This document shows positions 24,293 to 27,648 of a stretch of DNA of 64,000 nucleotides, one piece after another. Under the pieces are notes generated by a model. That model was not told the DNA's origin, did no database searches, and saw nothing but the letters and a program-made list of their open reading frames with translations. This DNA is from Paenibacillus tuaregi (GTDB lineage Bacteria > Bacillota > Bacilli > Paenibacillales > Paenibacillaceae). The translations under genes and the position numbers were made by a program. The stretch lies in contig NZ_LT575476.1 of NCBI RefSeq assembly GCF_900086655.1, positions 2,225,963 through 2,289,962 of the forward strand, read 5' to 3'. How positions within the stretch are numbered: position 1 is the stretch's first letter; each line of letters opens with the position of its first letter.

Positions 24293-24496
24293 ATGGACAA
24301 ACGTAAAGTCATCATTGCCTATCAACGTGGGTTCCTCACCCTGCAGGAGTGTGCTCAAATTCTTGGTGTTGAGAGAACGCATGTAGAGACTCTCCTGGTC
24401 AGGGACAAGGATACAGCTGAAGGAAGCACTGCTCTACCCATTGTTGTAGGCAAAGATGCCTTGAGAGGCATGCCGGGAACATACGAGGCGAATTAA
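24293..24496 (+). CDS. Small helix-turn-helix-like protein
   Basis: A 67-residue protein, family not recognised. The N-terminal half reads as a helix-turn-helix: L-T-L-Q-E-C-A-Q-I-L-G-V followed by E-R-T-H-V-E-T-L-L, similar to the DNA-binding unit of small excisionase-type or MerR-type regulators. The C-terminal half is short and Gly-rich. The SD GGAGG is buried in a hairpin. A TATAAT at 24231-24236 may drive it. It has its own terminator and is absent from this position in B. subtilis. Confidence 0.6.
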   Translation: MDKRKVIIAYQRGFLTLQECAQILGVERTHVETLLVRDKDTAEGSTALPIVVGKDALRGMPGTYEAN

Positions 24497-24650: not shown

Positions 24651-24675
24651 TATAATAAGAACATATGTTCTTATT
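24651..24675 (+). promoter_or_regulatory. -10 box overlapping a 22-bp perfect palindrome with SOS-box form
   Basis: TATAAT (24651-24656) runs into a perfect palindrome at 24654-24675, centred on GAAC-ATAT-GTTC. Twelve of fourteen positions fit the Bacillus LexA box CGAACRNRYGTTYC. It lies 60-80 bases before the split sigma pair and would block a start near 24663. Confidence 0.55.
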
Positions 24676-24736
24676 CAACTTTTCTTGTTGTTATTCGTCT
24701 ATTAATTATTGAAAGTACATAGGTGGAGGGGATTAT

Positions 24737-25081
24737 TTGTTAGTCCAGAAAGAGAGCATATTTGAGCAGTATAAGGCAGAACTTTACCGGATCGCTTGGC
24801 GGCTGCAGTATAAAGCTAAGGTCATTCGCAGACGGGAAACCTCATTTTATGATATGGAACCCGCAGACACCAGAACCTTTACCACAGACTCTGATAATAA
24901 GATCGTAGTGGACCAGCTTTTAAGCAGTTTGCCCGCACAGGGACGTACAATTTTACGTAAGCTCTACATGGAGAACCGAACGGAAAAAGAGGTGGCATGT
25001 CAATTAAAGATTAGTCAACAGGCGGTGAGTAAATGGAAAAAGAAAATGATCCAGCAATTATCCCGGACCATGTGTTCCTAA
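24737..25081 (+). CDS. Sigma-70 region 4-like regulator (half of a split sigma pair)
   Basis: A 114-residue protein from TTG 24737 behind GGTGGAGGGG. Residues about 60-110 form a sigma region 4 helix-turn-helix: L-L-S-S-L-P-A-Q-G-R-T-I-L, then E-K-E-V-A-C-Q-L-K-I-S-Q-Q-A-V-S-K-W. No region 2 is present. The layout resembles Tn916 Orf7 and the SigO subunit of the B. subtilis SigO-RsoA two-part sigma factor. It overlaps the next gene by 49 bases, and that gene looks like the missing region 2. Direct sigma activity is inferred. Confidence 0.7.
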   Translation: MLVQKESIFEQYKAELYRIAWRLQYKAKVIRRRETSFYDMEPADTRTFTTDSDNKIVVDQLLSSLPAQGRTILRKLYMENRTEKEVACQLKISQQAVSKWKKKMIQQLSRTMCS

Positions 25082-25254
25082 GGCTGCTGCAGCAATCCAG
25101 AAACCACGATGAGGAGGCAACCTTAAAGCTTCTCGAACTGTTTGAAGGCGATATTGATCATTTAAGCAAGTACATTTATATGCCAAGGGAAGATGCGGCT
25201 TCCCAGATTATTGTTGAATTTCTTGAGTTTTTAAAGCAGGAGAAACAAGAATAG
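25033..25254 (+). CDS. Sigma region 2-like / HTH_16 partner protein
   Basis: A 73-residue protein whose pattern D-E-E-A-T-L-K-L-L-E-L-F, then E-D-A-A-S-Q-I-I-V-E-F-L-E-F-L, matches the core-polymerase-binding helices of sigma region 2. It also matches the HTH_16 proteins such as Tn916 Orf8 and RsoA. The first dozen residues are a polar leader. It starts inside the region 4 gene (49-base overlap), so production of the two is coupled. Together they could form one two-subunit sigma factor. No integrase or other transposon gene is nearby. Confidence 0.6.
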   Translation: MEKENDPAIIPDHVFLRLLQQSRNHDEEATLKLLELFEGDIDHLSKYIYMPREDAASQIIVEFLEFLKQEKQE

Positions 25255-25415
25255 AAATTATTTTCTAAACCAGGTTGTATTTCAAGTTCTCAAATTACCT
25301 ATTTAAGTGAAGGGCCAATTAAACCGGAATATGAAATAGCTTGGGAAGAAGCTATTTTAGGGTTCCATCTTCCCGCTCATGGCTCAAACTCATTTGAAAA
25401 GGAGCGATATTTTTC

Positions 25416-27122
25416 ATGAAAAAAATATTGTATGTACCGATCGATGACCGCCCTGTCAACCTGGATGATGTGATCCGGCAGGGGCAAGCCGCAGGGTTGA
25501 AATTAATTACTCCATGTACTGAGGATATTGAGAATCGTCTGGATTCTGTGGCCTTAGCCTCTGGGGACCAGCTATTAGGTACTTCAAAGCCTACCTTCGG
25601 CAATAGCTCACACATTCGGAAATTTATTTTAAACCATGCTTCATCTGCTGATGGATTTATTCTATCTACGGATATGTTGGCTTATGGCGGCCTCATTGGC
25701 AGCAGACGCCTGCGGACAAGCGGGGGAGGGACCTACCCGGAGTATGACTCATCGGTAACCCATCTGCTGGATGTCATCCGCAAGATTAAACAGACTTACC
25801 CGAACAAGCCTGTATTTGTGTTCGATACGATTATGCGCCTTGCCACAACCACTTATGTAGAAGGGCTCACTTCGGATGCGTCGGTTGAGTCACGTAATTT
25901 TATGGGACTGCCGCGCAAGTCTTATACGGAATTTGATGATATTCTGAACAACTATAATGAATCCGACAGCGGTACGCAATATGGGGAAACCACTCATTTC
26001 GATAAAACCCAATATTACAATACTCGGCAGCACAAATTTAAAACCAACTATTATGTGCTCGATCAGCTGGCACGTCAGGGTTACATTGATTTCCTGGCCG
26101 TAGGTGTCGATGATGCCAAAACCCAAGGTGTGCAAATTAATGAAATCCGCTTTGTTGAAAATTATATTAACAGCCACCTGGGCGGCCGCGGGGGGCAAAA
26201 TCCCGACCGGGCCATTATTCTGCCGGATGCGGACGGTTTGGGTCATTCTCTTGTCGCCCGCATGGCCAACCACTTGCACCATGGGGGAAGAAAACCGAAA
26301 TATTCGGTTCAATATTATGGTCCTGAAGGTTCCACCATTATTAATCCGTACGAGTATATGAATGTTCACGACAACATTGTGAGACACGTGGATATCATTG
26401 GTGGGCAATTTGTTACGGATTCACCGGACGTTGAGATTATTGCTATTACCAGCTCCGATGAGGTGCCGCAAGCAGTAAGCCGGATTGAGACAAACGGCTC
26501 TGAACGCCGGGGCACGGTTGTTGTTGATTTTGTCGGCCAGGGCCCGGCCAGCCCTGCAGTAACCGAGGCGCTGCTGGGCAGCCCATCCACGGGGCTTCTG
26601 TTAGGATATAGCGGCTGGAATACAGCAGGCAACAAAATTGGGATTGCCCTCGGCATGGGCCAGTCACGTTATGCGTTCCTTGTGTCCAAGGCAAAGCCTT
26701 CTGTTATGGAGGATGCTGTGGACGCTCATGGTTCATTGCTGTTTAAGCGCTTTTTGAAAGATTATTATTACAAAGCGGTAGCAATCAGTGACATACGGGC
26801 CTACTCAAGAAGCCACAGCAAATATGCCAACCTGCCGCAAGGCGTAGCGGATCAGAATATGGTTGTATTCAACTCCACAGAGGATTATAACCACCTGCTA
26901 ACCCTGCTTCGTGATCTGATGCAGATGCATACAGAAACTCTTCGCTCTAAGAATGCGTTTGGGATCGGAAGCCCGGCAGTGTCGCATGCTGTGCGGCAAA
27001 TCAAAGGGTCCTCTTGGAATTTAGCGGAGTATAAACGTGCACATTTAGATTATTGTGATCCTAACTATATTTGGGGACGTGCTTTTGAGATTACGCTAAA
27101 TCCAATGGTTGATGTGAAGTAA
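25416..27122 (+). CDS. DUF4127 family protein
   Basis: A 568-residue soluble protein starting K-K-I-L-Y-V-P-I-D-D-R-P-V-N, the hallmark of DUF4127. Other conserved-looking segments are A-V-G-V-D-D-A-K-T-Q-G (about 228-238) and the D-A-D-G-L-G motif (about 275-280). There is no signal peptide or membrane segment, so it acts in the cytoplasm. The activity is unknown; the acidic pairs suggest a metal- or sugar-related enzyme, but this is a guess. The ATG at 25416 follows AAAAGGAGCG. It is not at this site in B. subtilis and may be a target of the split sigma pair just upstream. Confidence 0.8.
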   Translation: MKKILYVPIDDRPVNLDDVIRQGQAAGLKLITPCTEDIENRLDSVALASGDQLLGTSKPTFGNSSHIRKFILNHASSADGFILSTDMLAYGGLIGSRRLRTSGGGTYPEYDSSVTHLLDVIRKIKQTYPNKPVFVFDTIMRLATTTYVEGLTSDASVESRNFMGLPRKSYTEFDDILNNYNESDSGTQYGETTHFDKTQYYNTRQHKFKTNYYVLDQLARQGYIDFLAVGVDDAKTQGVQINEIRFVENYINSHLGGRGGQNPDRAIILPDADGLGHSLVARMANHLHHGGRKPKYSVQYYGPEGSTIINPYEYMNVHDNIVRHVDIIGGQFVTDSPDVEIIAITSSDEVPQAVSRIETNGSERRGTVVVDFVGQGPASPAVTEALLGSPSTGLLLGYSGWNTAGNKIGIALGMGQSRYAFLVSKAKPSVMEDAVDAHGSLLFKRFLKDYYYKAVAISDIRAYSRSHSKYANLPQGVADQNMVVFNSTEDYNHLLTLLRDLMQMHTETLRSKNAFGIGSPAVSHAVRQIKGSSWNLAEYKRAHLDYCDPNYIWGRAFEITLNPMVDVK

Positions 27123-27192
27123 TGTTTGGGGGTTGTCCCGAAAGAGGTTAAATTCGAAATAACAACAGCTTACCTTCTGAATATTATCCGGA

Positions 27193-27246
27193 AAATACAG
27201 AAACAGCGGCCCAGAAGATTACACACGAGCCGCTGTTTCTGTATTT
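27193..27246. repeat. Perfect 18-bp inverted repeat
   Basis: AAATACAGAAACAGCGGC pairs perfectly with its complement across an 18-base loop. No T-run follows on either strand, so it is not a clear terminator. It lies between the DUF4127 gene and repeat A copy 2. Confidence 0.7.
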
Positions 27247-27335
27247 CACTGTACAGGCGCCTTCTTGAGTAGATGTCGGCGAACTAAAGCCGGCCGAACT
27301 CAAGATTTCCTTTCGAACAACTCGCATTTTTTGCT

Positions 27336-27533
27336 TATATAAAATGAACTTTAGAATTAACCGACCCCAGCTTCGATCCCGAGTGATTCTGAAGAAGCGG
27401 AGCGCCCGCCTTTGTCTCCGAAATGCCCCTACTTGGATATTTAGTTCAAGCATTTCGGAGACAACAGCGGTCATAAGAACACTCGGCATCGCAGCGCCCC
27501 AATAGGGTAAACTTCATTAGTTCATTTTATATA
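27336..27533 (+). repeat. Dispersed repeat A, copy 2 (198 bp)
   Basis: Second copy of the 16951-17150 element, same orientation. Its terminal inverted repeats are better kept: TATATAAAATGAACT at the left and its complement at the right. The central 115 bases are almost identical to copy 1; the differences cluster near both ends. It separates the accessory insertion from aroC. Confidence 0.88.
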
Positions 27534-27648
27534 AAACAAGAAAATTCGAATCAATACGTGACAGTCATGTATCTAAATATTATAATGAGCAGAGAAATTA
27601 TCGGATTTTAGCCAATTACAGTTTTACAGTTTAAAGGGGGAACGCAAC

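Follow-up and report, generated by a model that had tools for sequence, protein, structure and literature searches.

A candidate split sigma factor with a predicted SOS-type input and a single predicted target, a DUF4127 gene, in Paenibacillus tuaregi

Overall, we consider it rather likely that the stretch of Paenibacillus tuaregi DNA analysed here (64,000 nucleotides, hereafter the window) encodes a small relay, as judged from sequence comparison, in which DNA damage frees a LexA-blocked promoter, a split sigma factor forms, and this factor transcribes a gene of the DUF4127 family. During normal growth, LexA would occupy positions 24659-24670, just 3' of a TATAAT element, and silence a pair of overlapping genes, ORF1 and ORF2; removal of LexA upon DNA damage would then let the housekeeping polymerase transcribe both, with their overlap presumably allowing co-translation. 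ORF2 would contribute the portion of sigma domain 2 that binds core polymerase (regions 2.1-2.2), ORF1 would contribute region 4 and possibly the remainder of domain 2, and the two together with core RNA polymerase would read the sequence GGTTGT-N19-YCYATWTAAGTGAA and start transcription of DUF4127. Where the same motif precedes the pair itself, as it does in 24 of 39 loci by a strict pattern, the factor may also feed back positively on its own synthesis; the self-promoter in the window looks decayed, and the window circuit would therefore be a plain relay. In this genome, DUF4127 is the one target that we predict for what would be a dedicated two-protein sigma factor.

The sequence-only reading had described the two genes as an overlapping pair resembling a two-subunit sigma factor, and the reading frames bear this out: ORF1 (24737-25081, forward strand, 114 aa, TTG start) and ORF2 (25033-25254, forward strand, 73 aa) are both present and overlap by 49 nt. 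ORF1 matches Sigma70_r4 (PF04545) at 1.7e-6 and 27.9 bits, over the Pfam cut-off, and the Pfam scan found no region-2 family in it, in agreement with its earlier description as a region 4 without a region 2; its best NCBIfam model, the general sigma-70 model TIGR02937, is missed slightly (41.3 bits against a cut-off of 42.9). The description of ORF2 as a region 2-like protein of the HTH_16 type is borne out well for the family, in which 17 of 18 aligned sequences reach HTH_16 (PF12645) at E <= 0.1 and the best does so at 9.5e-7, and less clearly for the window member taken singly, whose score of 0.0023 and 18.5 bits lies under the cut-off of 22. For ORF2, no NCBIfam or PHROG match was found at E <= 1. 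Its predicted structure consists of four helices (pLDDT 72), for which Foldseek returned nothing at E <= 0.001 and VIA-align gave weak similarities to an unrelated dehydrogenase (Z 3.8), a SigA-RpoC model (Z 3.5) and an ECF sigma factor (Z 2.4).

The relationship is clearer at the level of profiles. Aligned by hhalign with six ECF-type sigma factors (SigW/SigV type), the ORF2 family profile falls on regions 2.1-2.2 (probability 96%, E 4.2e-9), and the ORF1 family profile covers the following part of the ECF chain through region 4 (probability 90%). Within the full alignment the N-terminus of ORF1 is in register with regions 2.3-2.4; because its first 46 residues by themselves give no match to these regions (probability 7.7%), their assignment to regions 2.3-2.4 stays a bare possibility. 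With the ORF2 family matching regions 2.1-2.2 and the ORF1 family the rest, the pair resembles a single small sigma factor divided into two chains, its halves in reversed order, and the two alignments thus argue for the proposed two-subunit sigma factor. ECF factors hold regions 2 and 4 in one chain, whereas the window factor would be made of two chains, encoded by two ORFs. Gene order and domain types are, we presume, those of Tn916 Orf7-Orf8.

The pair is well represented among relatives. At E <= 1e-15, relatives of ORF1 occur in 27 of 36 genomes of the genus, its own genome counted, and, outside the genus, in 4 of 23 genomes of the order; the larger tally of 54 of 59 genomes at E <= 1e-3 takes in ordinary sigma factors too. 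Of 39 loci, 36 have an intact partner whose start lies 49 or 52 nt short of the ORF1 end; the exceptions are one locus in which no partner was found (L048b), one in which it is frameshifted (L057), and one that has lost the overlap and the start (L058). Across the class, the partner profile matches 75 of 398 genomes at E <= 1e-3, a figure that again includes ordinary sigma factors: the seven weak matches inspected (L193-L199) resemble, by eye, full-length ECF-type sigma factors, and both proteins are encoded in all 20 of the stronger loci fetched (L173-L192), with ORF1 called only in part in L192 and apparently starting at a CTG in L177. These 20 class-level loci and the 39 with an assessed partner make up the 59 pair loci referred to below. 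A tree of 39 of the 59, which omits other close YvrJ-facing copies as well as L048b, L057, L058 and L192, places the window pair as sister to the YvrJ-facing pairs of the same genus (98/93). Six plasmid records match the pair, and in two Paenibacillus plasmids (L248, L249) it is annotated as a DUF1492 or sigma-70 protein followed by a helix-turn-helix protein, with a 49-nt overlap. ORFs of about 150 aa, membrane-like by eye and matching nothing in Pfam or NCBIfam, follow the pair in L174 (8401-8853), L032 (6651-7091) and L176 (8649-9125); in L174 the promoter motif described below stands before this ORF. We also considered a phage origin for the pair and rejected it: none of 50,697 phage records matches the pair, no IMG/VR locus is matched by the partner profile, and a single IMG/VR contig (L200) carries an ORF1 relative, located after an ORF that we read by eye as holin-like.

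The input to the circuit is predicted from the region upstream of ORF1. On the forward strand, a TATAAT at 24651-24656, the -10 element of a likely housekeeping promoter whose layout is similar in several relatives, is followed 2 nt later by the predicted LexA-type operator GAACATATGTTC (24659-24670), and further on by a ribosome binding site for ORF1 (24721-24731), a similar stretch of which stands before the start in many relatives. Between operator and start lies what appears, by eye against the relatives, to be a degenerate remnant of their self-promoter, TGTTGT ... TACATAG (24686-24722), and a matrix trained on YvrJ-side sites (described below) finds no site above -2.8 bits upstream of ORF1 in the window. 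The pattern GAACN4GTTC occurs once in the 64-kb window against 0.69 expected by chance, so its presence there says little by itself. The comparison across relatives says more: 17 of 58 loci have GAACN4GTTY ahead of the pair, 15 in the family of the window and 2 in family f32, compared with 6 of 690 size-matched control windows from the same loci, and several boxes of the same pattern precede lexA in this genome. The LexA-type box at 24659-24670 in its predicted promoter makes the pair a candidate member of the LexA regulon, probably triggered by DNA damage. Neither this box nor the DUF4127 promoter site had been noticed in the sequence-only reading.

At the same time, these data leave some room for a model in which the split sigma factor serves the DUF4127 promoter and the palindrome is not a LexA site at all, its place being taken by another repressor or by a stress signal such as acid or the cell envelope, as reported for SigO-RsoA. 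The box is missing in 41 of 58 pair loci, including all 26 of L033-L058, and across the genome GAACRNRYGTTC shows no enrichment (31 strand hits against 39 for the reversed control). In the same genome, the boxes of recA (CGAATGTATGTTCT) and uvrB (GGAACAGATATTCT, about 360 nt upstream) fit a loosened pattern only. Against such a model stand the excess of boxes over the control windows and the presence of the pattern before lexA, and we regard it as unlikely, if a serious contender, and retain LexA as the predicted repressor.

The output of the circuit is predicted from a promoter motif. In relatives, GGTTGT-N18/19-CCCTATA... is common to the upstream regions of the pair and of the gene that faces it, which in many relatives of the genus is by eye YvrJ (PF12841 was scanned in the own and control genomes); by the strict pattern, 18 of 39 loci carry the motif on both flanks of the pair. 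No YvrJ gene lies beside the window pair, yet one faces the pair in many relatives. To train a matrix we used 21 distinct sites from other genomes, each lying on the divergent (YvrJ) side of a pair; the window site was not among them. The sites were taken by pattern from L033-L056 and L058, duplicates were merged, and the downstream sites of L042 and L048 were dropped; their boxes lie 19 or 20 nt apart, a little less variation than the search pattern permitted. In the 64-kb window, the top site of this matrix is at 25273, with 25.3 of a possible 32.0 bits and a runner-up of 12.2, and it constitutes the predicted split-sigma promoter GGTTGT-N19-CCTATTTAAGTGAA (25273-25311, forward strand), its GGTTGT and CCTATTTAAG elements standing directly before DUF4127. 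The maximum in 206,534 strand-bases from 34 other loci of the genome is 16.7 bits, against a background that is the stricter because part of it (L108-L117) was picked for resemblance to the motif. Across all 5.67 Mb of the genome, the window site is the sole exact match to a consensus, which was written after the site was seen. No wider regulon emerges at up to 2 mismatches, where 11 genome sites compare with 30 for the reversed control and only the window site stands out, and the 9 kb scanned around the single YvrJ gene of this genome contain no motif. The suggestion that DUF4127, as the nearest gene, might be the target of the pair thus gains independent support from the predicted promoter. 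As a separate observation, six loci (L041-L044, L046, L047) carry an extra motif copy, ending about CCCTTATAGATGAGTGCGG, some 580-650 nt past the start of the sigma gene; it mostly faces a gene on the opposite strand, with a same-strand gene next in L042, and an antisense or other RNA is possible.

The spacing of the motif also bears on what kind of protein ORF1 might be. Its weak scores against RinA (2.8e-4) and ArpU (2.3e-3), together with the confinement of the region-2 likeness of ORF2 to 2.1-2.2, would suit a DNA-binding activator like the phage proteins RinA and ArpU, acting together with the housekeeping sigma factor, with ORF2 as its co-factor and no alternative holoenzyme. Boxes set 19 or 20 nt apart in all training sites are spaced as the -35 and -10 elements of a promoter, however, and the partner aligns with precisely the core-binding part of sigma domain 2, so that an activator of this kind strikes us as improbable. 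We find it harder still to believe that the DUF4127 motif is read by another sigma factor and that the pair is a bystander or a decaying remnant, a view that could appeal to the decayed self-promoter of the window and to a genome (G034) that keeps a DUF4127 gene and its motif with no detected ORF1 match, but that sits poorly with the 18 of 39 loci in which the motif flanks the pair at both ends, with its presence before DUF4127 in all five loci in which that gene adjoins the pair, and with the intactness of both ORFs.

The predicted target of the proposed split sigma factor encodes a 568-aa protein of a divergent DUF4127 subfamily (25416-27122, forward strand; Pfam DUF4127 at 3.2e-68). The genus holds two DUF4127 subfamilies, with matches in 23 of 40 genomes. 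In the window's subfamily, 9 of 13 genes have an upstream site of at least 17 bits: that of the window, those of L059, L063, L177 (which has a second site, of 19.8 bits) and L184, and the four of L099-L102, which have no adjoining pair. In an earlier version of the matrix that included the L042 and L048 sites, 1 of 200 shuffled versions of the L099 upstream sequence beat its site. The remaining four genes (L103, L104, L105, L239) have no motif upstream, and all four lie by phage tail genes. In the other subfamily, 1 of 24 loci (L091) has a site of at least 14 bits, which by its coordinates is downstream of the gene. Of the 59 pair loci, 5 have a DUF4127 gene of the window type next to the pair, downstream and on the same strand in the window, and upstream and divergent in L059, L063, L177 and L184. 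On the tree of 39 pairs this adjacency requires 5 changes, at least 4 of them forced by well-supported branches, so the association of DUF4127 with the pair has been gained or lost repeatedly.

On DUF4127 itself we found no paper in the open-access literature and no PDB relative at E <= 1 by profile search, and an AlphaFold2 model built with 21 sequences has a mean pLDDT of 46, too low for use. It matches phrog_20208, a phage family of unknown function, at 1.4e-23. In IMG/VR, 20 loci (L201-L220) encode DUF4127 at 53-70% identity; in all 9 that were read a tail sheath gene follows one or two genes later in the same orientation (sheath confirmed by PHROGs in L201 and L203), and in L201 DUF4127 is preceded by a gene of phrog_248, a phage transcriptional-activator family (1.1e-22). 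Among L201-L220 (9 of 20 read) and L103-L105, DUF4127 of the window subfamily is seen ahead of contractile phage-tail genes in two layouts. Because close homologs head contractile phage-tail modules, our guess is that it serves a prophage or bacteriocin programme induced by DNA damage. In L185 and L188 the promoter motif is followed by other genes: L185 (9647-9926) has a BhlA-type holin (9.4e-16; BhlA and UviB are akin), and L188 (5974-6610) has a similar ORF with an amidase (1.1e-8) after it. These arrangements suggest lysis or bacteriocin-release outputs, which for DUF4127 is a guess.

The cluster lies between genes that we take to be cheR and aroC, where it had been read as inserted. The gap between the two is 3430 nt in the window, compared with 18-706 nt in 10 of 19 relatives and 1107 and 1369 nt in 2; in the other 7, aroC is beyond the fetched 1.5 kb or elsewhere. 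The site is therefore variable, which fits an insertion. The pair has 43% G+C against 49% for the window, a value equally low in 5% of windows of equal size. A 67-aa ORF at 24293-24496 was excluded as part of the module, a match to it following cheR in 17 of 19 relatives, and the order cheR, 67-aa ORF, aroC is found again among them. In the interval between DUF4127 and aroC there is also a repeat-like element with inverted ends (27180-27540), and by eye a similar translated stretch occurs elsewhere in the genome (L138).

Among bench-characterised split sigma factors, our search of the open-access literature found only SigO-RsoA of B. subtilis (YvrI-YvrHa), the model of such a system (PMC10028694, PMC8103513, PMC10141391). 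The two systems share their division into a sigma-4 protein and a separate sigma-2 protein, and the self-regulation and yvrJ target described for SigO-RsoA (PMC8103513) recur in relatives of the window pair, which by analogy should work as SigO-RsoA does. SigO is a 22.5-kDa protein (PMC10141391), against 114 aa for ORF1, and unlike SigO-RsoA the window pair has DUF4127 as its predicted target and a LexA-type box. The comparison made in the sequence-only reading thus survives as a likeness of kind, orthology seeming doubtful because a better SigO-like set is present in the same genome at 1.028-1.029 Mb of C4 (G000:C4:1028239-1029362; L106, L122, L251). This second split-sigma-like operon runs from a GAACN4GTTC box through a 204-aa sigma-4 protein and YvrJ to an 83-aa HTH_16 protein, and it unites the only YvrJ and the only above-cut-off HTH_16 protein of the genome. 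The ORF1 family matches the 204-aa SigO-like protein in region 4 only, and as judged by way of that protein, not of B. subtilis SigO itself, the window pair seems not to be orthologous to SigO-RsoA, although many of its relatives do face a YvrJ gene.

For the predicted input, the closest parallel is UviA-UviB of Clostridium perfringens bacteriocin plasmids. UviA is described as a small sigma factor induced by UV and the SOS response, with a LexA-binding site and a dedicated target, and as a single chain with regions 2.4 and 4.2 (PMC4459074); the SOS-type input and the dedicated target would be shared, and the window factor differs in having two chains. The BhlA-type holin behind the motif in L185 is a further likeness. 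Our search of the open-access literature found nothing relevant that joins RsoA with LexA or a two-subunit sigma factor with the SOS response.

We would tentatively, and with more doubt than conviction, extend the model to a broad family of small split sigma factors in the Bacilli, ECF-like, cut within domain 2 between regions 2.2 and 2.3 and encoded in reversed gene order, many of which may each convert the SOS signal into a single dedicated output (a DUF4127 protein in some, YvrJ or a lysis cassette of holin and amidase in others) through a shared GGTTGT...AAGTGAAG promoter. DUF4127 would then be a detached component of DNA-damage-induced phage-tail (bacteriocin) programmes placed under this switch. 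Because trigger, promoter sequence and single target are all predicted for this compact split sigma factor, one reporter would suffice to test the whole circuit. Such a circuit would offer a functional handle on DUF4127, and it would suggest that UviA-like, SOS-driven sigma relays exist in split form outside clostridial plasmids.
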